From Pseudacidovorax sp. RU35E (GTDB lineage Bacteria; Pseudomonadota; Gammaproteobacteria; Burkholderiales; Burkholderiaceae_C), in NCBI RefSeq assembly GCF_900156165.1, contig NZ_FTMY01000001.1, positions 124,001 to 188,000 on the forward strand: a stretch of 64,000 bases of DNA, given 5' to 3'. The notes beneath the pieces are model-generated. The model did no database searches. It saw only the letters and a list, made by a program, of their open reading frames with translations, and was not told where the DNA came from. Numbering within the stretch: the first letter of the stretch is position 1; every line of letters starts with the position of its first letter. This document shows, piece after piece, positions 39,356 to 54,411 of this stretch. The translations under genes and the position numbers were made by a program.

Positions 39356-39371
39356 CTTTCAAACTGACCCC

Positions 39372-40058
39372 ATGACGCATTCCGTGAACCAAGACCTCGA
39401 AGCCCTGCAACGTCGCATCGACCTGCTGGAGCGGCGCATTGCCCGCGCCGAAGACACCGAGGCCATCGAGCGCCTCACCCGCATGTACGGCTACTACCTC
39501 GACAAGGCGCTCTGGTCCGAGATCATCGACCTGTTCACCGAGGACTGCAGCGTGGAGATCTCGGCCCTTGGCGTGTACGTCGGCCGCGACCGTGCCGCGC
39601 AGCTGTTCCGCGACATCCTGGGCAAGGGCCCGGCCATGAGCGACGAGAACGGGCTGGTGTGGGGGCGCCTCTACAACCACCTGATCGTGCAGGGCATCGT
39701 GCACCTGGACGAGGACGGCCTTGGCGCCAGCGGCCGGTGGCGCTGCTTCATGCAGATCGCCGAGTTCGGCGCCAAGGCGACGTGGGGCGAGGGCCCCTAC
39801 GAGATCCGCTACCGCAAGGAAGGCGGCGTGTGGAAGCTGCACCGCCTGCACTTCTACCGCACCTACCACACGCCCTTCGACGAGGGCTGGGCGAAGGCAC
39901 GCTCACCCCAGGGCGACCTGCGCCTGCGGCACCAGCCCGACCTGCCGCCCACGGTGGACTACGAGCCCTATCCCGCGGCCTTCGTGCCCCGCTTCCACTA
40001 CCCGAATCCGGTGTCGGGCAGCCGGGCCCACACGCGCGACGACATCGAGGCGGTCTGA
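39372..40058 (+). CDS. SnoaL/NTF2-like protein
   Basis: 228 residues. A short coiled-coil start (LEALQRRIDLLERRIARAED) leads into a SnoaL-like cone: IERLTRMYGYYLDKALWSEIIDLFTEDCSVEI, GLGASGRWRCFMQIAEFGAKATWGEGPYEIRYRKEGGVWKLHRLHF. The family holds small-molecule isomerases, dehydratases and hydroxylating enzymes, and the His/Tyr-rich LHFYRTYHTPF tail is in the usual pocket position. The exact reaction is not clear. Its pairing with a Bug protein suggests a step in the breakdown of an imported compound. Confidence 0.75.
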   Translation: MTHSVNQDLEALQRRIDLLERRIARAEDTEAIERLTRMYGYYLDKALWSEIIDLFTEDCSVEISALGVYVGRDRAAQLFRDILGKGPAMSDENGLVWGRLYNHLIVQGIVHLDEDGLGASGRWRCFMQIAEFGAKATWGEGPYEIRYRKEGGVWKLHRLHFYRTYHTPFDEGWAKARSPQGDLRLRHQPDLPPTVDYEPYPAAFVPRFHYPNPVSGSRAHTRDDIEAV

Positions 40059-40313: not shown

Positions 40314-40350
40314 TGTCTTATTGACAGAACAATAAAACGGATCCTACGAT
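40314..40350 (+). promoter_or_regulatory. Strong sigma-70 promoter and dyad for the GntR gene
   Basis: A consensus TTGACA (40321-40326) and TACGAT (40345-40350) are 18 bases apart. The predicted transcript start, about 40357, is only 2 bases before the ATG at 40359, so the message may be leaderless; no Shine-Dalgarno sequence is present. A perfect dyad TTATTG-N6-CAATAA (40318-40335) overlaps the -35 box, and TGTC-N5-GACA (40314-40326) interlocks with it: likely operators for the GntR product. Confidence 0.7.
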
Positions 40351-40358
40351 CATTTCCC

Positions 40359-41138
40359 ATGTCCTCGGCGCTGCCGCTTCCCAAGTACCACCGCATCTAC
40401 CTCGTGCTCCGGCAGCAGCTGGAGGAGGGCGCTTTCGAAGCGGGACTGCCGGGCGAACATGCCCTGATGGAGCAGTTCGAGGTGTCGCGGGTCACGGTGC
40501 GCAAGGCGCTGGAGCGGCTGTCCGACGAGGGCCTGATCAAGCGCGAACCCGGCCGCGGCACCCGGCCCACGACGGCCAATGCCTCCGTCGCCGCACCCGA
40601 CCGCACGCCGCTCACCGGCCTGCTCGAGAACCTCGTCACCATGGGCCTGAAGACCTCGGTGAAGGTGCTCGATGTGGCGGGCATCACCGCCTCCGAGGCG
40701 GTGGCGCAGGCACTGGGCATTCCGATCGGGGCCGAGGTGCAGAAGGCGGTGCGGGTGCGCAGCACGCGCGAAGGGCCGCTGTCGCTCATCACCACCTACG
40801 TGCCCCAGGCGCTGGCGCAGGGCTTCGGCCGCCGCGAGCTGGCGCGCAAGCCCATCCTGCTGCTGCTGGAGGAGTCGGGCGTGCGCGTGGGTCGGGCCCA
40901 CCAGAGCATCTCGGCCCGGCTGGCCGACGCCCACACGGCCGAGCACCTCGACGTGTCGGTCGGCACGGCGCTGCTGGCCGTGCGCCGCCTCATCTACGAC
41001 GTGGACGACCGGCCCGTGCAGTGGCTGCACGGCCTGTACCGGCCTGACCGCTACGAGTACCAGATGGAGCTGTCCCGCGTTGGCGACATCGACGCCAAGG
41101 TGTGGGTCAGCAAGGACGCTTCCGCCCGCTTTTCCTGA
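40359..41138 (+). CDS. GntR-family regulator with UTRA domain (HutC type)
   Basis: 259 residues from the ATG at 40359. The GntR winged helix (KYHRIYLVLRQQLEEGAFEAGLPGEHALMEQFEVSRVTVRKALERLSDEGLIKREPGRGT, residues 9-68) is followed by a UTRA ligand domain similar to chorismate lyase (TGLLENLVTMG ... RLIYDVDDRPVQWLHGLYRPDRYEYQMEL). It begins the 40359-54250 unit and lies 24 bases before the transporter binding-protein gene, so it probably senses the imported compound or a product. A 17-codon upstream extension from 40308 would run through the promoter and is rejected. Confidence 0.9.
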   Translation: MSSALPLPKYHRIYLVLRQQLEEGAFEAGLPGEHALMEQFEVSRVTVRKALERLSDEGLIKREPGRGTRPTTANASVAAPDRTPLTGLLENLVTMGLKTSVKVLDVAGITASEAVAQALGIPIGAEVQKAVRVRSTREGPLSLITTYVPQALAQGFGRRELARKPILLLLEESGVRVGRAHQSISARLADAHTAEHLDVSVGTALLAVRRLIYDVDDRPVQWLHGLYRPDRYEYQMELSRVGDIDAKVWVSKDASARFS

Positions 41139-41162
41139 CATCGACCCACGAAGGAGTTCGCC

Positions 41163-42377
41163 GTGACCCAGACCACCCGCAACCGTCGCCAGTTCATCGC
41201 CCAGTCGGCGGCCGCCGCATCCGCCCTGGCCCTGCCGACCATCGGTGGCGCCCAGCCGCGCAGCATCAAGGTCGGCGTGCTGCACCCGGTCACCGGGGCG
41301 CTCGCCTATTCGGGCCAGCAATGCCGGGCCGGCGCGCTCATGGCCATCGAGGACATCAACAAGGCCGGCGGCATCAAGTCGCTCGGCGGTGCGCGCCTTG
41401 AAGCCCTGCTGGGCGACGCCCAGTCGCAGCCGCAGGCCGGCGCGGCCGAGGTCGAGAAGATGAACGAGGCTGGCGTGTCCGCCGTGGTCGGCGCCTTCGC
41501 CTCGGCCATCTGCCTGGCCACCACGCAGGCCGCCGCCAAGTACAACCTGCCGCACATCGTGGACGTGGGCGTGGCCGACCAGATCGTCGAGCGCGGCCTG
41601 AAGAACACCTTCCGCTTCGGCCCGGGCTACAAGGCCGTGACCGACCTGGCCATGGCCAACCTGCACGTGCTCAACAGCGTGGCGGGCAAGCCGGCCAAGA
41701 CCGTGATGATCATCCACGAGGAGTCGCTCTTCGGCACCGGCACGGCCAACCTGCTGTCGCGCGAGCTGCCGGGCTTCGGCTTCGAGGTGAAGGAAGTCAT
41801 CAAGCACGCCAACCCCACGCGCGACTTCAACAACATCGTGCTGCGCATCAAGTCCGTCAACCCGGACATCGTGATCCCGGCCAACTACTACAACGAATAC
41901 GCACTGCTGGTGCGCACCATGCAGCAGCAGCGCGTGGTGCCCAAGGCCATCTACTCGGTGCTGGGGGGCGCGGCGTCGAGCTACAAGTTCGTGCAGGAGT
42001 TCCCCGATGCCTCGCACGGCATCATCGACTGCAACCACTGGTTCAACCCCAAGGACGCACGCGCCCAGGCGCTGAAGAAGCGGGCCGAGGCCCAGAAGCT
42101 GTACTTCAGCTATGAGCTGTTCATGACCTACACCAGCATGATGCTGCTGGCCGATGCGCTGGAGCGGGCCAAGTCCAGCGAGCGCGCAGCGCTGATCGAC
42201 GCGCTGGAGAAGAGCACCTTCTCCGACCACTTCATGCCCTATGGCCCCACCAAGTTCGTCAACGGGCAGAACCAGGGCGGCCGCCCGCTGATGACGCAGG
42301 TCATCAACAAGGACATCAAGGTCATCATCCCGCGCGAATACCGCGAGGTCGAGCCCCTGTTCCCGCTCAAGGCCTGA
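41163..42377 (+). CDS. Branched-chain-amino-acid-type ABC transporter binding protein
   Basis: 404 residues from a GTG start with AAGGAG 8 bases upstream. MTQTTRNRRQFIAQSAAAASALALP is a twin-arginine-like signal. The Peripla_BP_6 fold is clear: IKVGVLHPVTGALAYSGQQCRAGALMAIEDINKAGG, VSAVVGAFASAICLATTQAAAKYNLPHIVDVG, and VIPANYYNEYALLVRTMQQQRVVPKAIYSVLGG. It captures the substrate for LivHMGF. Relatives in catabolic operons bind amides, urea and aromatic acids, so the ligand need not be an amino acid; the degradative genes downstream suggest a cyclic or amide compound. Confidence 0.92.
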   Translation: MTQTTRNRRQFIAQSAAAASALALPTIGGAQPRSIKVGVLHPVTGALAYSGQQCRAGALMAIEDINKAGGIKSLGGARLEALLGDAQSQPQAGAAEVEKMNEAGVSAVVGAFASAICLATTQAAAKYNLPHIVDVGVADQIVERGLKNTFRFGPGYKAVTDLAMANLHVLNSVAGKPAKTVMIIHEESLFGTGTANLLSRELPGFGFEVKEVIKHANPTRDFNNIVLRIKSVNPDIVIPANYYNEYALLVRTMQQQRVVPKAIYSVLGGAASSYKFVQEFPDASHGIIDCNHWFNPKDARAQALKKRAEAQKLYFSYELFMTYTSMMLLADALERAKSSERAALIDALEKSTFSDHFMPYGPTKFVNGQNQGGRPLMTQVINKDIKVIIPREYREVEPLFPLKA

Positions 42378-42404
42378 ACGGCACCGCCACGGGTCCTCTT
42401 CCAC

Positions 42405-43277
42405 ATGTTCGATCTGTCGATCGTGGTGCCGTCCGTGCTGAACGGACTCACCACCGGGGCGGTGTACGCCCTCATCGCCCTGGGGCTCACGCTGATCTAT
42501 GGCGTGCTGCACATCATCAACTTCGCGCACGGGGCCTCGCTGATGCTGGCGCTCTATGCCGTGTACTGGCTGCGCGCGCAGTTCGGCATCGACCCCTACC
42601 TGGCACTGCCGCTGGTGGTGGCAGGCATGTTCGCGCTGGGCTACGCATTGCAGCGCGGCATCATCAACCGCGCCAGCCACGGCAAGGACGAGAACATCCT
42701 GCTGGTCACGCTGGGCCTGTCGATCGTGATGGAGAACCTGGCGCTGCTGTTCTTCCGCTCCGACACGCGCACCATCGACACGCCCTACACGCTGACCACG
42801 CTGCAGATCGGCCCGGCCTTCATCGCGCTGCCCAAGCTCATCGCCTTCGGCGGTGCGCTGGCCGGGGCGGCCGTGCTGCTGTGGATCGTCAAGGCCACCG
42901 ACCTGGGCCGCGCGATCCGCGCCGTGGCCAAGGAGAAGCAGGGCGCGCGCCTCATGGGCATCGACGTCGACCATGTCTACGCCATGAGCTTCGGCATCGG
43001 TCTGGCCTGCCTGGGCGCGGCGGCCTGCTTCCTGCTGCCGGCCTACTACGTCAACCCGCAGGTGGGCGGCGGCTTCGTGCTCGTGGCCTTCACCATCGTC
43101 GTGCTGGGCGGCATGGGCAGCTTCACGGGGGCACTCGTGGGCGGGCTGCTGATCGGCGTGGTCGAGTCGCTGGGTGGCCTCTTCCTGGGCGAGTCGCTGG
43201 GGCAGATCGGCATCTTCCTCATCTTCATCGCGGTGCTGCTGTTCCGTCCCCAGGGCCTCTTCGGAAGCAAGGCATGA
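42405..43277 (+). CDS. livH: ABC transporter permease, LivH type
   Basis: 290 residues, about eight membrane helices. The signature GVLHIINFAHGASLMLALYAVYWL (residues 26-50) and the EAA-like loop DLGRAIRAVAKEKQGARLMGIDVDHVYAMSFGIG (165-200) identify LivH-type permeases of the branched-chain-amino-acid family. It pairs with LivM to form the channel. It starts 27 bases after the binding-protein gene and overlaps livM by four bases. Confidence 0.93.
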   Translation: MFDLSIVVPSVLNGLTTGAVYALIALGLTLIYGVLHIINFAHGASLMLALYAVYWLRAQFGIDPYLALPLVVAGMFALGYALQRGIINRASHGKDENILLVTLGLSIVMENLALLFFRSDTRTIDTPYTLTTLQIGPAFIALPKLIAFGGALAGAAVLLWIVKATDLGRAIRAVAKEKQGARLMGIDVDHVYAMSFGIGLACLGAAACFLLPAYYVNPQVGGGFVLVAFTIVVLGGMGSFTGALVGGLLIGVVESLGGLFLGESLGQIGIFLIFIAVLLFRPQGLFGSKA

Positions 43278-44236
43278 AATCGGTTCTTCTCATCGTGGTG
43301 TTCGCCCTCGTGGTGGGCGCCATCCCGCTCGTGACCACCTCAGGGGTCTGGCTCAACTTCGTCATGATGGCGCTGTATGCCGGGCTGCTGGCGCAGGCCT
43401 GGAACATCCTGGGCGGCTTCGGCGGACAGTTCTCCTTCGGCCATGCACTGTTCTTCGGCTTCGGTGCCTACGTGCAGGCCATCGCGCAGCTGCAGTGGGG
43501 CTTCAACCCCTGGGTGGCGCTGGTGGCGGCGGCCGGTGTCTCGGCGCTGGTGGGCCTGGTCGTGGGGGCGCTGAGCTTCCGCTACGGCCTCAAGGGCTCG
43601 TACTTCGCGCTGGTCACGCTGGCCTTCGCCGAGGTGTGCCGCATCCTGGCGCTGTCGCTGCCCTTCACCGGGGCCGGGGTCGGCCTGATGGTGCCGCTGC
43701 GCGAGTCGGTGGCCAACATGCAGTTCGGCTCGCGGGTGGGCTACCTGTACGTGATCCTCGCCATGGTGGTGGTGGCCCTGCTGGTCAGCGCCTGGCTGCG
43801 GCACTCGCGCTTCGGCGCCTACCTGCAGGCGGTGCGCGACAACGAGGACGCGGCCCGCGCGGCCGGGGTCGACCCGCTGCGCGTCAAGCTAGGCGCCATC
43901 GTGCTGTCGGGTGGTTTCATGGGGATGGCGGGCGCTTTCTACGTCCAGGTGTTCCAGTACATCGACCCGGGCATCGCCTTCGGCTCCACGTCGTCGGTGG
44001 AGGCCCTGGTGGCGGCCATCGTGGGCGGCATGGGCACGGTGTGGGGTCCGCTGCTGGGCGCCTTCGCGCTGCATGTGCTGGCGGACCTGACCCGCAACCT
44101 GTTCGGCGAACTGCCGGGCATCAACATGGTCATCTATGGCTGCGTGCTGGTGCTGATCGTGATGTTCCTGCCGCGCGGCATCGCCGGCGTGGGGCAGAAC
44201 GTGCGCCGGCTCTGGAAGGGAGGCCGCGGTGGCTGA
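43274..44236 (+). CDS. livM: ABC transporter permease, LivM type
   Basis: 320 residues with about eight to ten membrane helices (LLIVVFALVVGAIPLV, FVMMALYAGLLAQAWNILGGFGGQFSFGHALFFGFGAYVQ). The cytoplasmic coupling loop SRFGAYLQAVRDNEDAARAAGVDPLRVKL (about 191-219) is the EAA-type contact for the ATPases. Start by ATGA overlap with livH; the downstream ATPase begins 8 bases inside its end. Confidence 0.93.
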   Translation: MKSVLLIVVFALVVGAIPLVTTSGVWLNFVMMALYAGLLAQAWNILGGFGGQFSFGHALFFGFGAYVQAIAQLQWGFNPWVALVAAAGVSALVGLVVGALSFRYGLKGSYFALVTLAFAEVCRILALSLPFTGAGVGLMVPLRESVANMQFGSRVGYLYVILAMVVVALLVSAWLRHSRFGAYLQAVRDNEDAARAAGVDPLRVKLGAIVLSGGFMGMAGAFYVQVFQYIDPGIAFGSTSSVEALVAAIVGGMGTVWGPLLGAFALHVLADLTRNLFGELPGINMVIYGCVLVLIVMFLPRGIAGVGQNVRRLWKGGRGG

Positions 44237-44995
44237 TCATCTGCTCGAAGTCGAGGGCGTCTCCAAGACCTTCGGCGGCCTGCGCGCCGTGCGCGAGGTC
44301 TCGCTGGCGGTGCCGGCAGGCTCGCTCACCGCGCTGATCGGCCCCAACGGCGCCGGCAAGACCACACTGTTCTCGCTGATGTCGGGCTTCCAGCGCCCGG
44401 ACACCGGCCGCGTGCGCCTCGGTGGGCGCGACATCACCGGCCAGGCGCCGCACCTCAATGCCCGCATGGGCATGGGCCGCACCTTCCAGATCGTGCAGCC
44501 CTTCGCCGCGCAGACCGTGCGCGAGAACATCGCGGTCGGCGCCCACCTGCACCATGCCAACCGGCGCGAGGCCCTGGCCAGCGCCGAGGCCGTAGCCCAG
44601 CGTGTGGGCCTGGGGCCGCAGCTGGACAAGCCGGCCTCCGACCTGACCGTGGCCGGCCGCAAGCGGCTGGAGCTGGCGCGGGCCCTGGCCACGCGGCCGC
44701 GCCTGCTGCTGCTCGACGAGGTGCTGGCCGGCCTCAATCCGCAGGAGATCGCCGAGATGCTGCCCGTGGTGCGCGCCATCCGCGAGGAGGGCGTCACCGT
44801 CCTCATGATCGAGCATGTGATGCAGGCCGTGATGAACCTGGCCGAGCATGTGTGGGTGCTGGCCCAGGGCGAGCTGATCGCCGAGGGGCCGCCGCAGGTC
44901 GTCACGCGCGACCCCAAGGTCGTCGAGGCCTACCTGGGCCATGGCACGGCCGCCCGCCTGCAGCGCGGCATGGCGGCGCAGGCGGAGGTGCAGGC

Positions 44996-44999
<4 letters not shown>
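44229..44999 (+). CDS. livG: ABC transporter ATPase, LivG type
   Basis: 256 residues from a GTG start that overlaps livM. The Walker A is GPNGAGKT (around residue 38), the Q-loop is in GRTFQIVQPFA, a signature-like LTVAGRKRLELARAL segment replaces the usual LSGGQ form, as in LivG, and the Walker B is LLLLDEVLAGLNP. The C-terminal EVVEAYLG-type ending (PKVVEAYLG) is characteristic. It energises the importer together with LivF. Confidence 0.93.
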
Positions 45000-45760
<761 letters not shown>

Positions 45761-45761
45761 C

Positions 45762-47081
45762 ATGAGTACCCCCCAGACCTTGGCGCAGAAGCTCATCGCG
45801 CACGCCGCCGGCGTGCCCGCGGTGCGCGAAGGCGAGATAGTCAATTGCCGCGTGGACCTGGCCATGTTCCATGACTCCTCCGGCCCGCGCCGGCTCAAGC
45901 CGATGCTGGAGGAGCTGGGCGCGCGCATCTGGGATCCGTCCCGTGTGGTGCTGGTCATGGACCACTTCGTGCCCGAAGCCGACGACGATGCGCGGCGCAT
46001 CGTGCGCATCGCGCGCGATTGGGCGGCCGAGCAGGGCCTGCCCCATGTGCACGACAGCCAGGGCATCTGCCATGTGGTGCTGCCGCAGAAGGGGCACCTG
46101 CGCCCGGGCCTGTTCTGCGTCGGCGGCGATTCGCACTCGCCCACCGGCGGTGCCTTCGGCAGCTACATGTTCGGCATCGGCAGCACCGAGATGCTGGGCG
46201 TGGTGGTCACCGGCGAGATCTGGGTCAAGGTGCCGCGCACCCTGCGCATGCGCTGGCAGGGCCGCCTGGCCGACGGCGTGTGCGCCAAGGACATGATGCT
46301 GCACATGATCGGCCGCCTGGGCATGAACGGCGGCGACTACCAGGCGGTGGAGTTCGCGGGCGACACGGTGCGCGGCCTGTCGATGGCCGAGCGCATGACG
46401 CTGTCCAACCTGAGCGCCGAGCTGGGCGCGCAGGCAGGCCTGGTGGCGCCCGATGCCACCACCGCCGCCTGGCTGCGCGACGTGGGCGTGACGGTGAGCG
46501 ACGAAGACCTCGCCCGCTGGCAGACCGACGAGGGCGCCGCCTGCATCGACCACGACTTCGACGCGCGCGAGCTGGTGCCCATGGTGGCGTTGCCCCACAG
46601 CCCGCAGAACGGCCGCACGGTCGAAGCCGTGGCGGACGAGCCGGTGCAGCTGGCCTACATCGGCGCCTGCACCGGCGCCAAGCTGGAGGACCTGCAGGCC
46701 GCCGCCCGCGTGCTGGCCGGCCGTCGCATCGCCTCCGGCATGCGGCTGCTGGTGGCACCGGCCAGCGTGCACGACTGGCAGCGCGCCGAGGCCATGGGCG
46801 TGGCCCGGGTCCTGCGCGATGCGGGCGCCGAACTGCTGCCCAGCGCCTGCGGCGCCTGCGCCGGCTACGGCCAGGCCATCCAGGGCGCGACGCGGGTCAT
46901 CTCCAGCACGGCGCGCAACTTCAAGGGCCGCATGGGCTCGGCGCAGGCCGAGGTGTTCCTGGCCTCGCCCTACACCGTGGCGGCCTCGGCGCTGCGCGGG
47001 CGCATCACCGATCCGCGCGATGTGCTGGTGCAGGCGCCGGGCTCCGAAGCCGCATCGACATCGCCGGGCACCCCGTCATGA
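45762..47081 (+). CDS. Aconitase-family hydratase, large subunit (LeuC/DmdA-like)
   Basis: 439 residues. The aconitase/isopropylmalate-dehydratase fold is clear (MDHFVPEADDDARRIVR, GDSHSPTGGAFGSYMFGIGSTEMLGVV). The [4Fe-4S] ligands are Cys303 in GACTGAKLEDL and Cys363/Cys366 in ACGACAG. The CTGAK form differs from the CTNGR of LeuC and is seen in homoaconitase- and dimethylmaleate-hydratase-like enzymes. It would add water to an unsaturated dicarboxylate such as maleate, citraconate or dimethylmaleate. The small subunit follows by four-base overlap. The exact substrate is inferred from the operon. Confidence 0.87.
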   Translation: MSTPQTLAQKLIAHAAGVPAVREGEIVNCRVDLAMFHDSSGPRRLKPMLEELGARIWDPSRVVLVMDHFVPEADDDARRIVRIARDWAAEQGLPHVHDSQGICHVVLPQKGHLRPGLFCVGGDSHSPTGGAFGSYMFGIGSTEMLGVVVTGEIWVKVPRTLRMRWQGRLADGVCAKDMMLHMIGRLGMNGGDYQAVEFAGDTVRGLSMAERMTLSNLSAELGAQAGLVAPDATTAAWLRDVGVTVSDEDLARWQTDEGAACIDHDFDARELVPMVALPHSPQNGRTVEAVADEPVQLAYIGACTGAKLEDLQAAARVLAGRRIASGMRLLVAPASVHDWQRAEAMGVARVLRDAGAELLPSACGACAGYGQAIQGATRVISSTARNFKGRMGSAQAEVFLASPYTVAASALRGRITDPRDVLVQAPGSEAASTSPGTPS

Positions 47082-47617
47082 CCCAGCTTCCTCTGCCTGA
47101 CAACAACGAAGCGCCGGCCGGCCACCGCGTGTGGCGCCTGGGCGCCAACGTCGACACCGACGCCCTGGCCCCCGGCCATGCCATGAAGTTCGGCATGGAC
47201 GTCATCGCACGCCATTGCCTCGAATCGATGCGGCCCGAGTTCGCCGCCCAGGTGCGCCCCGGCGACGTGGTGGTGGCCGGGCCGGGCTTCGGCATCGGCT
47301 CCTCGCGCGAGCAGGCCGCGTCCGTGCTCGTGGCCCTGGGCGTGCGCGCCGTCATCGCGCCCAGCTACAGCGGCCTGTACTTCCGCAATGCCTTCAACGT
47401 CGGCCTGCTGCTGCTCACCTGTGCCGACGTGGACGCGCTGCAGGAGGGCGAGCGCATCGGCCTGACCGTGGACGACCCCGACCGGCCCCGGGTGCGCGCC
47501 GCCGACGGCCGCGTGCTCGCCTGCGACCCCGTGCCCGCCTTCCTGATGGCGCGGGTGCGCGCGGGCGGCCTGCTCAACGAACTCAAGCAACGCTTCTCCA
47601 AGGAATCCCATGTCTGA
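47078..47617 (+). CDS. Aconitase-family hydratase, small subunit (LeuD/DmdB-like)
   Basis: 179 residues: the swivel domain with WRLGANVDTDALAPGHAMK at the start and GPGFGIGSSREQAASVLVALGVRAVIAPSYSGLYFRNAFNVGL, the substrate loop SSREQA being the LeuD hallmark. It completes the active site of the large subunit. It overlaps the large subunit gene by four bases and the hyuB gene start by eight, so it is part of the same coupled chain. Confidence 0.9.
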   Translation: MTQLPLPDNNEAPAGHRVWRLGANVDTDALAPGHAMKFGMDVIARHCLESMRPEFAAQVRPGDVVVAGPGFGIGSSREQAASVLVALGVRAVIAPSYSGLYFRNAFNVGLLLLTCADVDALQEGERIGLTVDDPDRPRVRAADGRVLACDPVPAFLMARVRAGGLLNELKQRFSKESHV

Positions 47618-49295
47618 AGCCACACTCGATCCCGTCACGCTGGCGGTGCTCAAGGGGCGACTCGAGCAGATCGCCGACGAGATGGACGCGACGCTCTACC
47701 GCAGCGCGTTCAATCCCATCATTGCCGAGGCGCACGACGCCTGCCATGGCCTGTACGACGGCGACAGCGGCGACACGCTGGTGCAGGGCAAGTCGGGCCT
47801 GCCGGTGTTCGTGGGCGCGATGGCTTTCGCCGTGCGCGCCGCCAAGCGCGCGGCCGACGCCCTGGGCGGCATGCGCGAAGGCGAGGTCTGGCTGTTCAAC
47901 GACCCCTACGAGGGCGGCACCCATGCCAACGACTTCAAGCTGGTGCGCCCGGTGTTCCGCGACGGCCGGCTGCTGTGCTTCCTGGCCTCGGCCGCGCACT
48001 GGCACGATGTGGGCGGCGCGGTGCCGGGCAACTACAACCCGGCCGCCACCGAATGCTGGCAGGAGGCGGTGCAGATCCCGCCGGTGCGCATCGTGCAGGG
48101 CGGACAGATCAACCCCGACGTGCTGGCCATCCTGCGCGCCAACACCCGGCTGCCCGACAGCCTGTGGGGCGACCTCAACGGCCAGCTGGCCGCGCTGGAG
48201 CTGGGCGCGCGCCGCCTGGCCGAACTGCTCGACGCCTATGGCGACGCCGTGGTGCTGCAGGCCCTGCAGGCGCTGCGCGAGCGGGCCCGCCGGCTGATGC
48301 GGGCGCAGATCGCCTCGCTGCCCGACGGCGTCTATCGCTTCTCGGACGTGCTCGACAACGATGGCGTGGTCGACGAACCCCTCACCATCGCGCTGGACAT
48401 GACGGTGCAGGGCGAACGGCTGGTGCTCGATTTCTCGCGCAGCTCGCCGCAGTGCCAGGGCCCCGTCAACATCTCGCGCGCCACCGCGGTGGCGGCCTGC
48501 TACGTGGCACTCAAGCACCTGTTCCCCGAGGTGCCGGCCAATGCCGGCGTGCTCGACGCGGTGGAGTTCGTCATGCCCGAAGGCCTGGTCATCACGGCGC
48601 AGCGTCCGCGGCCGGTGGGCGGCTACACCGAGACCATCCTGCGCATGATCGACGTCATCTTCAGCGCCGCGGCGCAGGCCGATCCGCGCCGCGCCGTGGC
48701 GCAGGCCTACGGCACCATCAATGCGCTGTCCATCGCCGGCCACCGCAGCGAGGGCGCGCGCAGCGGCCAGCGCTGGGTGATGTTCAGCTTCTTCGGCGGC
48801 GGTCACGGCGCCCATGCGGGCGGCGACGGCCTCAACCACGGCAACGCGCCGATCTCCACGGCCACCATTCCGCCGCTGGAGATCCTGGAGGCCGCCTACC
48901 CGGTGCGCTTCACCGAATGGGCGCTGCGCCCCGGTTCGGGTGGCGACGGCACGCACCGCGGCGGCCTGGGCGCCATCTATGAAATCGAACTGCTGGAGCG
49001 CCAGGCCCAGGCCTTCATCTTCGGCGAGCGCGGCAAGTCCGCGCCCAAGGGCATCGCCGGTGGCGGCGACGCGCAGGCCAACCGCTTCAGCTGGCATTCG
49101 CAGGGCGCGTGGCACACGCCGCCCATGGTGTCGAAGATGCTGGGCATCACCCTGGAGCGCGGCGACCGCGTGCGGCTCGAAACCCCCGGTGGTGGCGGCT
49201 GGGGCCCGCCCGAGGCGCGCGGCGCCGACGAACGCGCGGTGGACGCCCGCCGCGGCTACCTGGCCGACGCGGCCAACCCGGGAGAACAGCAATGA
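47610..49295 (+). CDS. hyuB: Hydantoinase B/oxoprolinase-family subunit
   Basis: 561 residues covering the whole HyuB family: DPVTLAVLKGRLEQIADEMDATLYRSAFNPIIAEAHDACHGLYD at the start, EGEVWLFNDPYEGGTHANDFKLVRPVF, and the ending GDRVRLETPGGGGWGPP. HyuB works with the ATP-using HyuA to open five-membered lactams and hydantoins or, in relatives, to carboxylate ketones. No N-carbamoylase is present here, so hydantoin as the natural substrate is not required. Start by 8-base overlap, with AAGGAAT before the ATG. Confidence 0.93.
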   Translation: MSEATLDPVTLAVLKGRLEQIADEMDATLYRSAFNPIIAEAHDACHGLYDGDSGDTLVQGKSGLPVFVGAMAFAVRAAKRAADALGGMREGEVWLFNDPYEGGTHANDFKLVRPVFRDGRLLCFLASAAHWHDVGGAVPGNYNPAATECWQEAVQIPPVRIVQGGQINPDVLAILRANTRLPDSLWGDLNGQLAALELGARRLAELLDAYGDAVVLQALQALRERARRLMRAQIASLPDGVYRFSDVLDNDGVVDEPLTIALDMTVQGERLVLDFSRSSPQCQGPVNISRATAVAACYVALKHLFPEVPANAGVLDAVEFVMPEGLVITAQRPRPVGGYTETILRMIDVIFSAAAQADPRRAVAQAYGTINALSIAGHRSEGARSGQRWVMFSFFGGGHGAHAGGDGLNHGNAPISTATIPPLEILEAAYPVRFTEWALRPGSGGDGTHRGGLGAIYEIELLERQAQAFIFGERGKSAPKGIAGGGDAQANRFSWHSQGAWHTPPMVSKMLGITLERGDRVRLETPGGGGWGPPEARGADERAVDARRGYLADAANPGEQQ

Positions 49296-51337
49296 GCGAC
49301 GCGCGCACCCGTGTCGTCGGCGTGGACGTCGGCGGCACCTTCACCGACCTCTTCGTGCTCGACGAGGCCGCCGGCACCGCCGAGATCGTCAAGGTGCCCT
49401 CCACCCGCGGCGAAGAGTCGGTGGGCTTCATGAACGGCATCGCGCGGGTGGACGACCGCGGCGCACAGAGCCTGGCCACCATCATCCACGGCACCACCGT
49501 GGGCACCAATGCGCTGCTGGAGCGCAAGGTGGCCCGCACCGGCCTGATCACCACCCGCGGCTTCCGCGACGTGCTGGAGATGCGCCGGCGCGACCGGCCC
49601 CAGACCTGGGGCCTGCGCGGCGGCTTCGAGCCGGTGATCGAGCGCGCCCTGCGCCTGGAGGTGGACGAACGCGTGCTGGCTGACGGCCGCGTGCACACGC
49701 CGGTGGACCTGGACCAGGTGCGCGCCGCCGCCCGCCAGCTGCTGGAGCAGGGCTGCGAGGCCGTGTGCGTGTTCTTCATCAACACCTATGCCAACCCGAG
49801 CAACGAGCAGGCCGCCGCGGCGGCGGTGCGCGAGCTGTGGCCCAACGACCATGTGACGGCGGCGGCCGAGGTGCTGCCCGAGATCCGCGAGTTCGAGCGC
49901 GCCTCCACCGCCAGCCTCAACGCGGCGCTGCAGCCGGTGGTCGGCCGCTACCTGGAGCGGCTGGACGGCGACCTGCGTGCGCGCGGCTTCGGCGGCGAGC
50001 TGCTGATCGTGCAGAGCAACGGCGGCGTGATGTCGCGCCGCACGGCGGGCGAACTGCCGGTGCGCACGGCGCTCTCCGGCCCGGCGGCGGGCGTCATCGC
50101 CTGCGCGGCCATCGCCACGGCCGCGGGCCATCCGGACGTGATCACCGGCGACATCGGCGGCACCTCCTTCGACGTGTCGCTCATCGCGGGCGGGCAGGCG
50201 GCCCTGGCCTCGCAGACCAGCATCGACTTCGGCCTGGTGGTGCGCTCGCCCATGATCCAGATCGAGACCATCGGCGCCGGCGGCGGCTCCATTGCCAGTG
50301 TGGATGCGGGCGGCATGCTGCAGGTCGGGCCCGAGTCCGCCGGCAGCGTGCCCGGCCCGGCCTGCTACGGCCGCGGCAACGAACGGCCCACCGTGACCGA
50401 CGCCAACGTGCTGCTGGGCCGCATCGCGGCGCAGCGCCCGCTCGGCGGCGGCCTGCTGGGCGCGCTCGACGTCGAGAAGGCCCGCGAGGCCATCCGCCGC
50501 CACGTGGCCGAGCCGCTGGGCCTGGACGTGCTGGCCGCGGCCGAGGCCATCCTCACCGTGGCCAATGCCAAGATGGCCGGCGCGATGCGGCTGGTTTCCA
50601 TCGAGCGTGGCCACGATCCGCGACGCTTCGCCTACATGCCCTTCGGCGGTGGTGGCGGCCTGCATGTGTGCGCCATGATGCGCGAGGTGGGCGTGGTCAC
50701 CGGTATCGTGCCGCGCTATCCGGGCGTCACCTCGGCCCTGGGCTGTGTGATGGCCGACATGCGGCACGACGCGGTGCAGACCCTCAACCAGGACCTGGCC
50801 GCCATCGACTTCGCCGCGCTGCGCGAACTGCGCGCCGGCTTCGAGTCGCGCTGCCGCGCGCGGCTCGACAGCGCCGGCGTGGCCTTCGAATCGGTGCGCG
50901 AGGAACTGGTGCTGGACATGCTCTACCAGGGCCAGACCCACACGGTGGCGGTGCCGGTGCGCGCCAACGCGCTCGATGCCGACGCCGCCCGCGCCGCCTT
51001 CGAGACCGCCTACCGCGCCGAGTTCGGCCGCGTGCTCGACGGCATCGGCCTGCGCGTGATGAACCTGCGCTACGCCCTCATCGGCGTGCGGCCCAAGTTC
51101 GACCTGTCGGTGCTGGCACCGCGCGGCGAAGGCCGCACCGAGCCGCTGGGCGAGCAACCGGTCTACTTCGGCGGCGACTGGGTGCAGGCACGCCGCTATG
51201 CGCGGCTGGAGCTGCCGGTGCGCGCGCGCATCGCCGGCCCGGCCATCCTCGAACAGGCCGACACCACCGTGTGGCTCGAACCCGGCTTCGAGGCCGTGGT
51301 CGACGCCCTGGGCAACCTCATCCTTCGCCAGCCATGA
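49292..51337 (+). CDS. hyuA: Hydantoinase A/oxoprolinase-family ATPase subunit
   Basis: 681 residues. The actin-like ATPase motifs are VVGVDVGGTFTDLFVLDE (residues 8-25), HGTTVGTNALLERKVARTGLITTRGFRDVLEM, TGDIGGTSFDVSLI and the GAGGGSIASVDAGGMLQVGPESAG block; the C-terminus has AGPAILEQADTTVWLEPG. It phosphorylates and activates an amide or ketone using ATP and forms a complex with HyuB. Family members include N-methylhydantoinase, 5-oxoprolinase, acetone carboxylase and acetophenone carboxylase subunits. ATGA overlaps join it to hyuB before and the isochorismatase-fold gene after. Confidence 0.93.
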   Translation: MSDARTRVVGVDVGGTFTDLFVLDEAAGTAEIVKVPSTRGEESVGFMNGIARVDDRGAQSLATIIHGTTVGTNALLERKVARTGLITTRGFRDVLEMRRRDRPQTWGLRGGFEPVIERALRLEVDERVLADGRVHTPVDLDQVRAAARQLLEQGCEAVCVFFINTYANPSNEQAAAAAVRELWPNDHVTAAAEVLPEIREFERASTASLNAALQPVVGRYLERLDGDLRARGFGGELLIVQSNGGVMSRRTAGELPVRTALSGPAAGVIACAAIATAAGHPDVITGDIGGTSFDVSLIAGGQAALASQTSIDFGLVVRSPMIQIETIGAGGGSIASVDAGGMLQVGPESAGSVPGPACYGRGNERPTVTDANVLLGRIAAQRPLGGGLLGALDVEKAREAIRRHVAEPLGLDVLAAAEAILTVANAKMAGAMRLVSIERGHDPRRFAYMPFGGGGGLHVCAMMREVGVVTGIVPRYPGVTSALGCVMADMRHDAVQTLNQDLAAIDFAALRELRAGFESRCRARLDSAGVAFESVREELVLDMLYQGQTHTVAVPVRANALDADAARAAFETAYRAEFGRVLDGIGLRVMNLRYALIGVRPKFDLSVLAPRGEGRTEPLGEQPVYFGGDWVQARRYARLELPVRARIAGPAILEQADTTVWLEPGFEAVVDALGNLILRQP

Positions 51338-51924
51338 AAACCGCCCTGGTCATCATCGACCTGCAGAACGACTTCCTCGACGCCCGCGGCGCCTACGCCC
51401 GCGGCGGATGTGCCAACCCGGCCGCGCAGGCCCTGCCCGAACGCGTGCTGCCGCTGGCGCAGGCGGTGCGCGCGGCCGGCGGCCTGGTGGTGGCCAGCCA
51501 GTTCACGCTGTGGCCGGGCGTGGGCGGCGCGCCCATGATCTCGCCGCACCTTCTGGCGCTGCGGCCCTTTCTACGGCAGGGCGACTTCGCGCCCGGCAGC
51601 TGGGGCCAGGCCAATGTGGAGCTGCTGCAGCCGGCCATCGACGCCACGGTGCACAAGGTGGCGTACTCGGCCTTCTTCAACACCCAGCTCGACTGGCTGC
51701 TGCGCAAGAACGGCATCGAGCGCGTGGCGGTGTGCGGCATCGTGACCAATGGCGGCGTGGCCAGCACGGTGCGCGATGCGCACATGCGCGACTACGACAC
51801 CTGGGTGGTGGCCGATGGCTGCGCCGCCTTCAAGCCCGAGACCCATGCCACGGCCCTGGCCGACATGGCCACCGTGGCCCATGTGGTGGACAGCGCCGAC
51901 TTCGGCGCCCGGGTGCTGGCATGA
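51334..51924 (+). CDS. Isochorismatase-fold hydrolase lacking the catalytic Cys
   Basis: 196 residues with the isochorismatase fold: ALVIIDLQNDFLD (Asp9), HKVAYSAFFNTQLDWLLRKNGIERVAVCGIVTN (Lys108) and STVRDAHMRDYDTWVVADGCAAF. In amidases and nicotinamidases the next motif is TNxCVE; here it is TNGGVAST, so the nucleophile Cys position is Gly141, as in EntB-type isochorismatase. Asp and Lys are kept. It may hydrolyse a vinyl-ether, ester or imine without a thioester, or act as a binding protein. Four-base overlaps on both sides tie it to HyuA and the flavoprotein. Confidence 0.85.
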   Translation: MKTALVIIDLQNDFLDARGAYARGGCANPAAQALPERVLPLAQAVRAAGGLVVASQFTLWPGVGGAPMISPHLLALRPFLRQGDFAPGSWGQANVELLQPAIDATVHKVAYSAFFNTQLDWLLRKNGIERVAVCGIVTNGGVASTVRDAHMRDYDTWVVADGCAAFKPETHATALADMATVAHVVDSADFGARVLA

Positions 51925-53357
51925 CGGTCGGTGCCGCAGGCGCTGCTGCTGCGCCGGACAGCACGGCCCGCGTGGTCGTCGAGCCCGCCTTCGAGGCCCC
52001 GGTGCAGACCGACGTGCTCATCGTCGGTGCCGGCGCCTGCGGCCTCACGGCCGCGCTGCTGCTGGCCGACCTGGGCGTGGACGCCGTGGTGCTGGAACGC
52101 GATGCGCAGCCCAGCGGCTCCACCAGCCTGTCTTCCGGCTTCATCCCGGCGGCCGGCACGCGCGTGCAGCAGGCACTGGGCATCGACGACAGTCCCGAGC
52201 GCTTTGCCGAGGACATCCAGGGCAAGGCCCACGGCACGGCGGCCCCGGCCCTGGTGGCCGCCTACACCCAGGCCATAGCGCCCGCGCTGGACCATCTCGA
52301 ATCGCGGCATGGGCTTCGGTGGGAGGTGCTCACCGGCTTCCTCTATCCGGGCCACAGCCGCCACCGCATGCACACGCTGTCCGCCCGCACGGGGGTGGCA
52401 CTGGAGCAGGCACTGGAGGCCGCGTTGGCGGCCGCCGGCGTGCCGGTGCTGACCGAGGCGCAGGCGACCGAGCTGGTGGTCGACGGCGAGCAGCGCGTGC
52501 TGGGCGTGCGCGCTCGCCGGCCGGATGGCAGCACCGAGGGCGTGGGCTGCCGCGCGCTGCTGCTGGCCTGCAACGGCTATGGTGGCGCGCCCGCGCTGGT
52601 GCGCCGCTTCATCCCCGAGATGGCCGAGGCGACCTTCGGCGGCCACACCGGCAACGACGGCACGGCGCTGCATTGGGGCGAGGCGCTGGGCGCGCGCCTG
52701 GCCGACATGCGGGCCTACCAGGGCCACGGCTCCTGGGCCGTGCCGCACGGCGTGCTCATGACCTGGGCGCTGATGGTCGAGGGCGGCGTGCAGATCAACC
52801 GCGAGGGCCGGCGCTTCCACGACGAGTCGCAGGGCTACTCCGAGGCTGCGCTGCACGTGGTGGCGCAGCCCGGCGGCATCGCCTGGGCCGTGTTCGACAC
52901 GCCGGTGCATGCGCTGGCGCAGGGCTTTCCGGACTTCGTCGAGGCCGAGGCGGCGGGGGCCGTGCGGCGTGCCGATTCGGTGGCCGCACTGGCGCAGGTC
53001 ATCGGTTGCGACGCCGACGTGCTGGCCGCCACCCTGGACGCCTGGACACCGGGCGAGCCAGACGCCTTCGGCCGCCGGCTGCCGCGCCGTCTTGCCGCGC
53101 CCTTCTTCGCGGTCAAGGTGACCGGCGCGCTCTTCCACACACAGGGCGGGCTGGACATCGATGCCCGCACCCGCGTGCTCGACGCCGGCGGCGCGCCGCT
53201 GCCCAATCTGTGGGCGGCAGGCGGCGCGGCCCGCGGCGTCTCCGGCAACCACGTCAGCGGCTACCTGTCGGGCAACGGCCTGCTCAGCGCCGTGGCGGGC
53301 GGCTACATCGCCGCGCACGACATGGCGGCCTTCCTGCGCACTTCCACACCTGCATGA
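51921..53357 (+). CDS. FAD_binding_2 flavoprotein (fumarate-reductase/TcuA/ketosteroid-DH type)
   Basis: 478 residues. After about 25 Ala-rich residues, VQTDVLIVGAGACGLTAALLLADLGVDAVVLERDAQPSGSTSLSSGF is the FAD-binding start. Later are GGHTGNDGTALHWGEALGARLADM, INREGRRFHDES and the C-terminal GGLDIDARTRVLDAGGAPLPNLWAAGGAARGVSGNHVSGYLSGNGLLSAVAGG. Members desaturate or reduce C=C next to a carbonyl or carboxylate. In this operon it could make the unsaturated dicarboxylate used by the aconitase-type hydratase, by analogy with TcuA; that is inference. Confidence 0.87.
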   Translation: MTVGAAGAAAAPDSTARVVVEPAFEAPVQTDVLIVGAGACGLTAALLLADLGVDAVVLERDAQPSGSTSLSSGFIPAAGTRVQQALGIDDSPERFAEDIQGKAHGTAAPALVAAYTQAIAPALDHLESRHGLRWEVLTGFLYPGHSRHRMHTLSARTGVALEQALEAALAAAGVPVLTEAQATELVVDGEQRVLGVRARRPDGSTEGVGCRALLLACNGYGGAPALVRRFIPEMAEATFGGHTGNDGTALHWGEALGARLADMRAYQGHGSWAVPHGVLMTWALMVEGGVQINREGRRFHDESQGYSEAALHVVAQPGGIAWAVFDTPVHALAQGFPDFVEAEAAGAVRRADSVAALAQVIGCDADVLAATLDAWTPGEPDAFGRRLPRRLAAPFFAVKVTGALFHTQGGLDIDARTRVLDAGGAPLPNLWAAGGAARGVSGNHVSGYLSGNGLLSAVAGGYIAAHDMAAFLRTSTPA

Positions 53358-54250
53358 CCGAGACAAGCTCTTCCACTTCCTCCTCCGGGCGCATCGGCCT
53401 GGCCGCGCGCCTGGCCCGGCCCGAACCGCTGCTGTGCCCCGGCGTTTACGACGCCTTCAGCGCCCTGCTGGCCGAGCAGGCCGGCTTCGAGGCGCTGTAC
53501 CTGTCGGGCGCCTCCATCGCCTACACGCGGCTCGGCCGATCGGACATCGGGCTCACCACCTTCACCGAGGTCTGCGACACGCTGGCCCACATCACCGAGC
53601 GGGTGCGCACGCCGGTCATCGTCGATGCCGACACCGGCTTCGGCAATGCGCTGAATACGCAGCGCACCGTGGCCGGCCTGGAGCGCGCCGGCGCCGCCAT
53701 GATCCAGCTGGAGGACCAGGGCTTTCCCAAGCGCTGCGGCCACCTGGACGGCAAGACCGTGGTGCCCGTCGCCGAGATGCAGGGCAAGCTGCGCGCCGCG
53801 CTGGACGCGCGCCGCAGCGCCGACACGCTCGTCCTCGCCCGCACCGACGCGCTGGCCGTCGAGGGCTGGGACGCCGCCATGGACCGGGCCGAGGCCTACC
53901 TCGAATGCGGCGTCGACGCGCTCTTCATCGAGGCGCTGCGCACGCCCGAGCAACTGGCGAAGGCCGCGCAGCGCTTCGCCGGCCGCGTGCCGCTGCTGGC
54001 CAACATGGTCGAAGGCGGCAAGACGCCGATCACGCCGGCCGACGAGCTGGGCCGGCTGGGCTTTCGCATCGTCATCTTCCCGGGCGGCACGGTGCGCGCG
54101 CTGGCGCATGCGATGCAGGGCTACTTCGCCAGCCTGCGGGCGCACCAGACCACCGAGCCATGGCGCGCGTCGATGCTGGACTTCGATGGCCTCAATGCGG
54201 TGATCGGCACGTCCGAGCTGCTGGCACTGGGCAAGCGTTACGAGGGCTGA
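53354..54250 (+). CDS. Isocitrate lyase/PEP mutase-family C-C lyase (2,3-dimethylmalate-lyase-like)
   Basis: 298 residues. The TIM-barrel family motifs are all there: CPGVYDAFSALLAEQAGFEALYLSGASIA, VDADTGFGNALNTQRTV (Mg-binding Asp), IQLEDQGFPKRCGHLDGK with catalytic Cys128 in the KRCGH motif, and ARTDALAVEGWDAAMDRAEAYLECGVDALF. The KRCGH motif marks lyases rather than PEP mutases. Dimethylmalate, methylisocitrate and citramalate lyases in this family split a malate-type acid to pyruvate and a second acid. As the last gene of the operon it would supply the final cleavage. Confidence 0.88.
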   Translation: MTETSSSTSSSGRIGLAARLARPEPLLCPGVYDAFSALLAEQAGFEALYLSGASIAYTRLGRSDIGLTTFTEVCDTLAHITERVRTPVIVDADTGFGNALNTQRTVAGLERAGAAMIQLEDQGFPKRCGHLDGKTVVPVAEMQGKLRAALDARRSADTLVLARTDALAVEGWDAAMDRAEAYLECGVDALFIEALRTPEQLAKAAQRFAGRVPLLANMVEGGKTPITPADELGRLGFRIVIFPGGTVRALAHAMQGYFASLRAHQTTEPWRASMLDFDGLNAVIGTSELLALGKRYEG

Positions 54251-54334: not shown

Positions 54335-54411
54335 TGGCCTGCCCGGAGGGGCTCGAACCCCCGACCTGCTGCTTAGAAGGCAGCTGCTCTATCCAGTTGA
54401 GCTACGGGCAG
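54335..54411 (-). tRNA. tRNA-Arg(UCU)
   Basis: 77 bases with encoded CCA. Acceptor arms CTGCCCG and CGGGCAG pair perfectly; D-arm GCTC/GAGC; anticodon stem GCTGC/GCAGC with loop CTTCTAA, anticodon TCT; T-arm GGGGG-TTCGAGC-CCCTC with one G-T pair. The anticodon reads AGA/AGG codons, rare in this GC-rich sequence. It lies 84 bases downstream of the lyase gene on the opposite strand. Confidence 0.97.

Follow-up and report, generated by a model that had tools for sequence, protein, structure and literature searches.

The window analysed here is a 64,000-nucleotide stretch of Pseudacidovorax sp. RU35E (contig NZ_FTMY01000001.1, positions 124,001 to 188,000), and the element in question is a gene cluster on its forward strand at 40359-54250. 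A preliminary description had read it as a GntR/UTRA regulator followed by twelve same-strand genes, which encode an entire ABC importer and six enzymes or subunits. Coordinates, strand and content were verified, and the arrangement was borne out by open reading frame (ORF) lists, GC content by codon position, start sites and a codon-usage gene caller, all of which agree on the gene boundaries except at the start of the flavoprotein gene (51921 by ORF, 51972 by the codon-usage caller). The enzymes or subunits number seven and not six, the isochorismatase-fold gene having been counted but left unnamed. Nine of the twelve gene junctions are overlaps of 4 or 8 bases, and at the remaining three the genes stand 1 to 27 bases apart; the thirteen genes therefore look like one transcription unit, which is probably induced by its substrate. 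Nine of the thirteen proteins were scanned against Pfam and NCBIfam, and the families were confirmed for all nine; the four Liv permeases and ATPases were assigned by eye from their translations and by synteny with canonical clusters (Table 1). The binding protein, two permeases and two ATPases of a Liv/HAAT importer are thus all found in the operon.

The gene set is a conserved operon and not a product of chance, since the orthologues of its isochorismatase-fold protein (ISO) in genomes of the same family nearly all sit in a complete operon. Nine such orthologues, at 64–99% identity, were found among 299 same-family genomes (the window's own included), the other matches listed being at most 42% identical, and the complete operon surrounds eight of the nine in the same gene order. 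The closest relative (G177) belongs to the same genus; two further genomes of that genus in the family set (G071, G255) have no ISO orthologue. Six of the eight operons have an additional gene, for a Bug-type binding protein, ahead of hydL, and G215 carries two further genes, for a Bug protein and an MmgE-like protein, after hydS. A scan of genome contigs gave 372 relatives, and the best 80 of the 372 loci were kept (65–99% identity). They come mostly from Variovorax, Polaromonas, Acidovorax, Limnohabitans and other Comamonadaceae, and also include Halomonas relatives, one Thiobacillus denitrificans and one Pigmentiphaga. Sixty-two loci have enough flank (more than 7 kb before and more than 3.5 kb after ISO), and 56 of these contain all seven enzyme genes; the other six are the variants L080, L091, L094, L101, L102 and L106. 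The preliminary description had held that these families do not usually meet, which is wrong for this lineage, and the synteny that it proposed as a check, hyuAB beside an aconitase-family pair and an isocitrate-lyase-family lyase, recurs throughout these 56 loci. Farther afield, ISO was found at an E value of 1e-40 in eight genomes of a phylum-wide draw of 398 (its own included, six outside the family), only in the window's own genome in a class-wide draw of 369, and on thirty plasmid records (Azospirillum 10, Sulfitobacter 9, Paraburkholderia 6 and five others). Relatives of the GntR regulator (39–96% identity) accompany other clusters, and at 50–57% identity they are found in eight betaproteobacterial or halomonad variants (L080, L091, L094, L101, L102, L106, L111 and G034). 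No motif that could represent a shared operator was common to the inverted repeats lying ahead of 32 GntR genes.

Table 1. Genes of the operon in the window and the evidence for each assignment
Feature	Coordinates	Strand	Evidence
GntR-family regulator with UTRA ligand domain, first gene	40359-41138	+	PF00392 3.8e-17, PF07702 1.3e-33
Periplasmic substrate-binding protein, Liv/HAAT importer	41163-42377	+	PF13458 Peripla_BP_6 2e-47
LivH-type permease	42405-43277	+	ORF, translation by eye, synteny
LivM-type permease	43274-44236	+	ORF, translation by eye, synteny
LivG-type ATPase	44229-44999	+	ORF, translation by eye, synteny
LivF-type ATPase	44996-45760	+	ORF, translation by eye, synteny
HydL, aconitase-family hydratase large subunit	45762-47081	+	PF00330 1.5e-86; NF001614 507 bits, cut-off 385
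HydS, hydratase small subunit, LeuD/DmdB family	47078-47617	+	TIGR02087 141.5 bits, cut-off 108.95
HyuB, hydantoinase B/oxoprolinase subunit	47610-49295	+	PF02538 2.7e-169
HyuA, hydantoinase A/oxoprolinase ATP-binding subunit	49292-51337	+	PF01968 4.7e-84, PF05378 2.6e-48
ISO, isochorismatase-fold protein	51334-51924	+	PF00857 6.8e-42
FAD2, FAD_binding_2 flavoprotein; flavocytochrome c/ketosteroid dehydrogenase/TcuA relatives	51921 (or 51972)-53357	+	PF00890 1.6e-51; NCBIfam, PDB relatives
PEP mutase/isocitrate lyase (PEPM/ICL) family lyase	53354-54250	+	PF13714 5.2e-45; TIGR02317 280.8 bits, cut-off 354.4; PDB relatives

The hydratase carries the features of the aconitase superfamily (LeuCD/HacAB/DmdAB type). 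In HydL, C303, C363 and C366 occupy the three Fe-S positions and are invariant in the eight aligned rows, and an unusual GACTGAK motif is found in 73 of 76 rows, with three unread; the GSSRE motif of HydS is present in all 77 rows. The loop region of the small subunit is reported to set substrate preference in the available excerpts of PMC7308503. In HydS this loop reads Met-Lys in 71 of 77 rows, Met-Gln in three and Met-His in one, with two unread, and its Lys aligns with an Arg of homoaconitase where the isopropylmalate/citramalate isomerase has Val in the solved subunits; bacterial-type LeuD also has a Lys near this position in the alignment, which calls for caution. Because the loop is more homoaconitase-like (Lys/Arg) than isomerase-like (Val), a purely dimethylmaleate-type substrate is argued against.

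The lyase belongs to the PEPM/ICL superfamily by its fold family and by the K(K/R)CGH signature, found as KRCGH in 81 of 82 rows with one unread. It is nearest to methylisocitrate lyase, yet scores 280.8 bits against the PrpB cut-off of 354.4, and neither prpC nor prpD is present in the operon. A Phe is conserved in all 82 rows and an Ile-X-Pro in 81 of them, at positions that we take to be those separating methylisocitrate lyase from isocitrate lyase; a literature search on these pocket positions found no paper. So read, the pocket would favour a C2-alkyl substrate and pyruvate as a product. Taken together, the Lys loop of HydS and the putatively methylisocitrate-lyase-like pocket suggest a substrate-derived acid with an extra carboxylate and a C2-methyl group. 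The pairing of a PEPM/ICL lyase with an aconitase-type heterodimer is a recurring module: two more pairs of a lyase and a LeuCD-like heterodimer, with GntR and Bug genes, lie in the same genome (G000) on contigs C9 (L202) and C20 (L203), one of them also with a PrpF-like protein (assigned by eye) and an MmgE/PrpD relative.

ISO has the isochorismatase fold by its Pfam match, by an AlphaFold2 model (pLDDT 91), by Foldseek and by its Asp and Lys positions. Among PDB folds this model comes closest to RutB and to the triuret and biuret hydrolases; maleamate amidases appear from rank 37 on. The catalytic cysteine of the fold is replaced by Gly141, with Asp9 and Lys108 retained and invariant in 22 aligned rows; the site reads TNGG in 89 of 90 rows and TNASV in one, with Cys in none. 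ISO falls outside the isochorismatase-fold amidases (NicF, RutB, CSHase), whose Asp-Lys-Cys triad it does not complete, and a Gly at this position is presumably also found in true isochorismatases. Whatever the substrate of the operon, ISO represents a cysteine-less isochorismatase-fold family with a testable reaction.

HyuB scores below the cut-offs of both matching NCBIfam models, and HyuA below the equivalog cut-offs of CapA, ApcC and ApcA. The best models for the pair are the caprolactamase subunits (506.7 and 276.1 bits, cut-offs of 1000), and the acetophenone carboxylase models follow at 291.8, 169.3 and 103.7 bits (cut-offs 1500, 1250 and 1500). FAD2 reaches 120.4 bits with the tricarballylate dehydrogenase TcuA, whose cut-off is 369. 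The fumarate-reductase arginines, at the positions assumed for them, are absent from FAD2 in the alignment, and at the second arginine site it shares a Gly-Tyr with TcuA.

Relatives of the operon exchange enzymes in three slots. This was seen in 110 sequences annotated by tblastn with reference proteins, at least three places being present twice (G177/L050, G215/L056, G122/L062); gene calls in L160 and in most of L200, L201, L204 and L205 followed antisense frames and were left out, and the variant summary rests on tblastn. The ring-opening slot is filled by HyuBA, by a dihydropyrimidinase/allantoinase-type hydrolase or, less clearly, by a PuuE-like one. A single dihydropyrimidinase/allantoinase-type amidohydrolase replaces the hyuB-hyuA-ISO block between hydS and FAD2 in L176, in whose genome (G042) ISO gave no match at 1e-40. 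In L091 (Billgrantia ethanolica) a PuuE-like hydrolase gene adjoins the FAD2 relative, and HyuA gave no match in that genome at 1e-60; the available excerpts of PMC9304392 relate the PuuE fold group to the cyclic imide hydrolases. The hydration slot is filled by HydLS, by a LeuCD-like pair, present alone without MmgE/PrpD in L186, or by an MmgE/PrpD protein, which stands in the hydratase position beside the lyase in L185, L189 and G814. The cleavage slot is filled by the lyase or, in G034, L102 and L080, by a CoA-transferase with an HMG-CoA-lyase-like protein. Since the fetched stretches of L177, L178 and L181 hold only the regulator, HydLS and the lyase, plus a Bug gene in the first two, and neither HyuAB nor ISO, hydration and cleavage look like the core of the system, to which ring opening with deamidation would be an input module suppliable by different enzymes. 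L188 is a canonical operon without the FAD gene.

In G034 and L102, ISO and the regulator lie beside genes for a Bug protein, a maleate-isomerase-like protein, an HspB/PnpA-like FAD monooxygenase, an HMG-CoA-lyase-like protein, a CoA-transferase and LeuCD, and in L080 HyuB-HyuA-ISO is joined to this same gene set. The HspB/PnpA-like monooxygenase, the maleate-isomerase-like protein and ISO co-occur in L111, G034, L102 and L080, a set that we take to resemble the maleamate end of nicotinate catabolism; in L119 the first two lie inside a canonical cluster. HyuA has only distant relatives (37–39%) in the genomes of G034 and L102, and close ones (78%) in those of L111 and L080. Upstream of hyuB in L080 (L161:13012-13206, reverse strand, Polaromonas sp. 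OV174), a 64-codon frame resembles the tail of hydS by eye, and the layout looks as if a canonical operon had shed its front and gained the FAD3/HMGL/CoA-transferase module. On a Tistrella plasmid (L187), the genes after HyuB-HyuA-ISO encode a glutaryl-CoA dehydrogenase (1.5e-185 against its human counterpart), a CoA-transferase and LeuCD; the genome of the window also contains a glutaryl-CoA dehydrogenase relative at 70%. Association of the dehydrogenase with the operon was rejected as a general feature, as it was seen in only two of the 110 sequences (inside the operon in L187, upstream on the other strand in L176), which is too few.

Three further neighbourhoods were recorded. Near a HyuAB-ISO cluster on a plasmid of Sulfitobacter sp. 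S190 (L209:18691-24605) lie an annotated molybdopterin-dependent oxidoreductase, a 6-hydroxynicotinate reductase and a UPF0280 protein, apparently in a separate operon. An annotated tautomerase, with a SnoaL-like second half by eye, precedes hyuB in Sulfitobacter plasmids (L207:8663-9229) and in the alphaproteobacterium G978 (184 amino acids), the L207 and G978 proteins being 58% identical to each other. On a Neorhizobium petrolearium plasmid (L189:1322-2293, forward strand), an annotated nitronate monooxygenase adjoins the operon and matches old-yellow-enzyme models (NamA, N-ethylmaleimide reductase) below their cut-offs; such a gene would suit a maleimide substrate.

On balance, we favour a single catabolic operon by which a branched cyclic imide, or a similar ring amide, would be imported, opened, deamidated, desaturated, hydrated and split to pyruvate and an acid. 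What the Liv-type importer takes up would be a small ring amide with a branch, a cyclic imide being the likeliest kind; HyuAB would open the ring, spending ATP, and ISO would release the remaining amide as ammonia. Where the compound is saturated, the FAD enzyme would introduce or shift a double bond. The branched maleate-type acid so obtained would be hydrated by HydLS, and the lyase would cleave the hydroxy acid to give pyruvate and a further acid. The thirteen genes include no aminotransferase, amine oxidase or carbamoylase, so the nitrogen would most simply leave as ammonia from amide bonds. An imide would give a diacid after two hydrolyses; an enamide lactam would release ammonia too. Intramolecular amide cleavage has a classic example in the substituted maleamic acids, alkyl-substituted ones included, reportedly described by Kirby and Lancaster in 1972. 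The carboxylate of the substrate itself would then serve as the nucleophile in ISO, so that only acid catalysis by Asp and Lys would be needed from the cysteine-less protein. The families, the gene order, the conservation and the enzyme exchange in the ring-opening, hydration and cleavage slots are all read from sequence, whereas we infer that the substrate is an imide, in what order the enzymes act, what ISO does without a cysteine, and which products are formed. The earlier proposal of import, ring-amide opening, desaturation, hydration and a retro-aldol or Claisen-type cleavage is supported as a general scheme by the relatives, where unrelated enzymes of the same reaction type occupy the same slots.

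Several observations weigh against this cyclic imide reading. The family of HyuAB also holds lactamases, oxoprolinases and carboxylases. The catalytic cysteine is missing from ISO in all 90 rows, so its amidase role is assumed. That FAD2 acts on a neutral ring, for want of the fumarate-reductase arginines, was considered and withdrawn, because the second arginine is also missing from four proteins of the TcuA family, all of which score above the NCBIfam cut-off. The ring-opening role of the PuuE-like hydrolase in L091 is a guess, because its gene is divergent from the ISO operon and its score (126) is far under the cut-off (424.6). The hydratase replacement is not clean in L185, L189 and G814, which also carry a nearby LeuCD-like pair, and G937 has no hydratase gene within the fetched stretch. 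Finally, the 6-hydroxynicotinate reductase annotation in L209 would suit a lactam.

A lactam or enamide ring (for example tetrahydro-6-oxonicotinate-like, from a pyridine carboxylate) is the starting point of another explanation, which we consider unlikely. HyuAB would open the ring to an enamine, and ISO would protonate the double bond and free ammonia as an enamine hydrolase. It would account for the Gly, presumably shared with true isochorismatases, that ISO has where amidases have Cys, and for the one amidohydrolase that replaces HyuBA and ISO in L176, as an enamidase would. It is also consistent with the tautomerase-annotated gene before hyuB in two Sulfitobacter plasmids, and its relative so placed in G978, with the annotated 6-hydroxynicotinate reductase and molybdopterin-dependent oxidoreductase near one cluster, and with the glutaryl-CoA dehydrogenase gene of the Tistrella cluster. 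However, of the three Sulfitobacter clusters viewed, only one has nicotinate-type neighbours; if the product were an aldehyde, an oxidase or dehydrogenase would be required, and none was seen in the operon; and the folds nearest to the ISO model are amide hydrolases. An imide with a six-membered ring is also improbable: citrazinate- or glutarimide-type rings would yield tricarballylate- or aconitate-like acids, to be desaturated by a TcuA-like FAD enzyme, hydrated and split. TcuA is indeed among the relatives of FAD2, the Gly-Tyr at the second arginine site is common to both, and HydS has Lys where homoaconitase has Arg. Yet FAD2 is far under the TcuA cut-offs, the host's own aconitase-like and isocitrate-lyase-like genes (partial matches) should serve unsubstituted aconitate, and the lyase pocket residues, taken to be methylisocitrate-lyase-like (82 rows), predict a C2-methyl.

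The pair of HyuAB and an isochorismatase-fold hydrolase is known from creatinine and N-methylhydantoin degradation. Catabolism of a ureide or hydantoin, in which HyuAB would act in the manner of an N-methylhydantoinase and ISO would be a carbamoyl-amidase, would agree with this pairing and with RutB and the triuret and biuret hydrolases as the nearest sequence and fold relatives of ISO. We find it quite improbable, given an ISO without the catalytic Cys and products that would be amino acids, leaving hydratase and lyase unexplained. Most improbable in our view is an operon for the degradation of a nitrogen-free ketone or acid, with HyuAB working as an ATP-dependent carboxylase like those for acetone and acetophenone. 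Both subunits do match the acetophenone carboxylase models, far under the cut-offs, but their best models are caprolactamase subunits, and replacement by an allantoinase-type hydrolase fits hydrolysis, not carboxylation.

Within the cyclic imide reading, the substrates may be proposed to be hematinic acid and its related maleimides, which are monopyrrole remnants of chlorophyll and heme; this rather doubtful proposal would make the operon an undescribed bacterial route for the carbon and nitrogen of broken tetrapyrroles. Hematinic acid is a maleimide with methyl and carboxyethyl substituents, and once opened and deamidated it becomes methyl-homoaconitate. It would fit because the two specificity sites, one of them putative, suggest an extra carboxylate and a C2-methyl; these sites and ecology are what the hypothesis rests on. 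HyuAB would open the maleimide, ISO would hydrolyse the dialkyl maleamate with the help of the substrate carboxylate, HydLS would hydrate methyl-homoaconitate, and the lyase would cut methyl-homoisocitrate to pyruvate and glutarate. According to the available excerpts of PMC7318184, hematinic acid was found in leaves, other maleimides not being detected in that study; work cited there describes both hematinic acid and maleimides from senescent leaves and from sediments of lakes, and the yearly turnover of chlorophyll is put on a scale of 10^12 kg. The papers searched assign no substrate to this conserved pathway. Its possession of an importer of its own, and its occurrence in bacteria of roots, leaves and fresh water (Variovorax, Acidovorax, Polaromonas, Limnohabitans) and on alphaproteobacterial plasmids, suggest that it serves a common natural compound; if this were a tetrapyrrole-derived maleimide, the operon would bear on the end of chlorophyll breakdown.

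Around the operon, a tRNA-Arg gene (anticodon tct; 54335-54411, reverse strand) lies 84 bases past the last gene. The genes downstream vary between Pseudacidovorax strains (L049, L050), so this side, near the tRNA, may be an insertion site. Directly upstream are a Bug/TctC-type binding protein gene and a SnoaL_4 gene (38351-40058, forward strand), with LysR and IclR regulators farther upstream; neither the Bug/TctC nor the SnoaL_4 gene had a match upstream of the G177 operon within the fetched stretch. The SnoaL_4 gene (39372-40058) was considered as a relative of the tautomerase-like gene of G978 and Sulfitobacter and rejected, as only chance matches of 25–29 residues were obtained. Opposite the regulator and the first genes of the importer, an open frame of 874 codons runs on the reverse strand (40350-42974). 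The codon-usage caller did not select it, and the high-GC window contains several such long mirror frames. At a distance of about 300 kb, the same contig carries a lone paralogue of the lyase (69–71% identity; L200:9795-10694, reverse strand; G000:C17:470822-471673), with mostly miscalled neighbours.

The operon is real and conserved, and its pathway is undescribed as far as searched, although the enzyme families that make it up are known. Searches of the open-access PMC literature found neither the gene set nor the pathway described, which is weak evidence of novelty; the preliminary description had matched the combination to no nameable pathway. The genome of Variovorax sp. WS11 holds the operon (L054); the paper on that strain (PMC9804861) names a dimethylmalate lyase gene in a methylcitrate cluster, and its main text mentions neither hydantoinase nor isochorismatase. 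The caprolactamase CapAB, as described in excerpts of PMC6061476, has the same ATP-dependent ring-opening pair of HyuA/HyuB type, from which the operon differs by its scores far below the cut-offs and by having no transaminase. The fungal imide step of nicotinate breakdown (HxnM/HxnN) and the bacterial imidases, as covered by the excerpts of PMC9304392, are similar in that a ring imide is opened, the amide removed and the acid used, whereas the operon has the ATP-dependent HyuAB in place of a PuuE/HpPgdA-like hydrolase and a hydratase-lyase end in place of hydroxyglutarate. The methylcitrate cycle (PrpB, AcnD/PrpD) shares a PrpB-like lyase, and MmgE/PrpD in the hydratase position of some relatives, but the operon has no methylcitrate synthase and a lyase below the PrpB cut-off.

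Two nicotinate pathways offer the remaining comparisons. NicF and NicE belong to the bacterial maleamate pathway of nicotinate, which resembles the operon in its isochorismatase-fold hydrolase, and to which some variants add likeness by their HspB/PnpA-like FAD monooxygenase and maleate-isomerase-like protein; unlike that pathway, the operon has an ISO without the catalytic cysteine, and no dihydroxypyridine dioxygenase was noticed among the genes seen. Anaerobic nicotinate fermentation ends with the module of dimethylmaleate hydratase DmdAB and 2,3-dimethylmalate lyase, and the preliminary description had named a hydratase with a dimethylmalate-type lyase. This holds for an aconitase-type pair with a PEPM/ICL lyase and not for DmdAB and Dml in the strict sense, as the genes that accompany DmdAB in nicotinate fermentation are not alongside in the operon: it has no B12 mutase, methylitaconate isomerase, 6-hydroxynicotinate reductase or enamidase, its input module consists of HyuAB, ISO and FAD2, and a basic residue makes the HydS substrate loop homoaconitase-like. 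What the two systems share is their end, a LeuD/DmdB-family aconitase-type heterodimer beside a PEPM/ICL lyase, with predicted hydration followed by cleavage to pyruvate and an acid.

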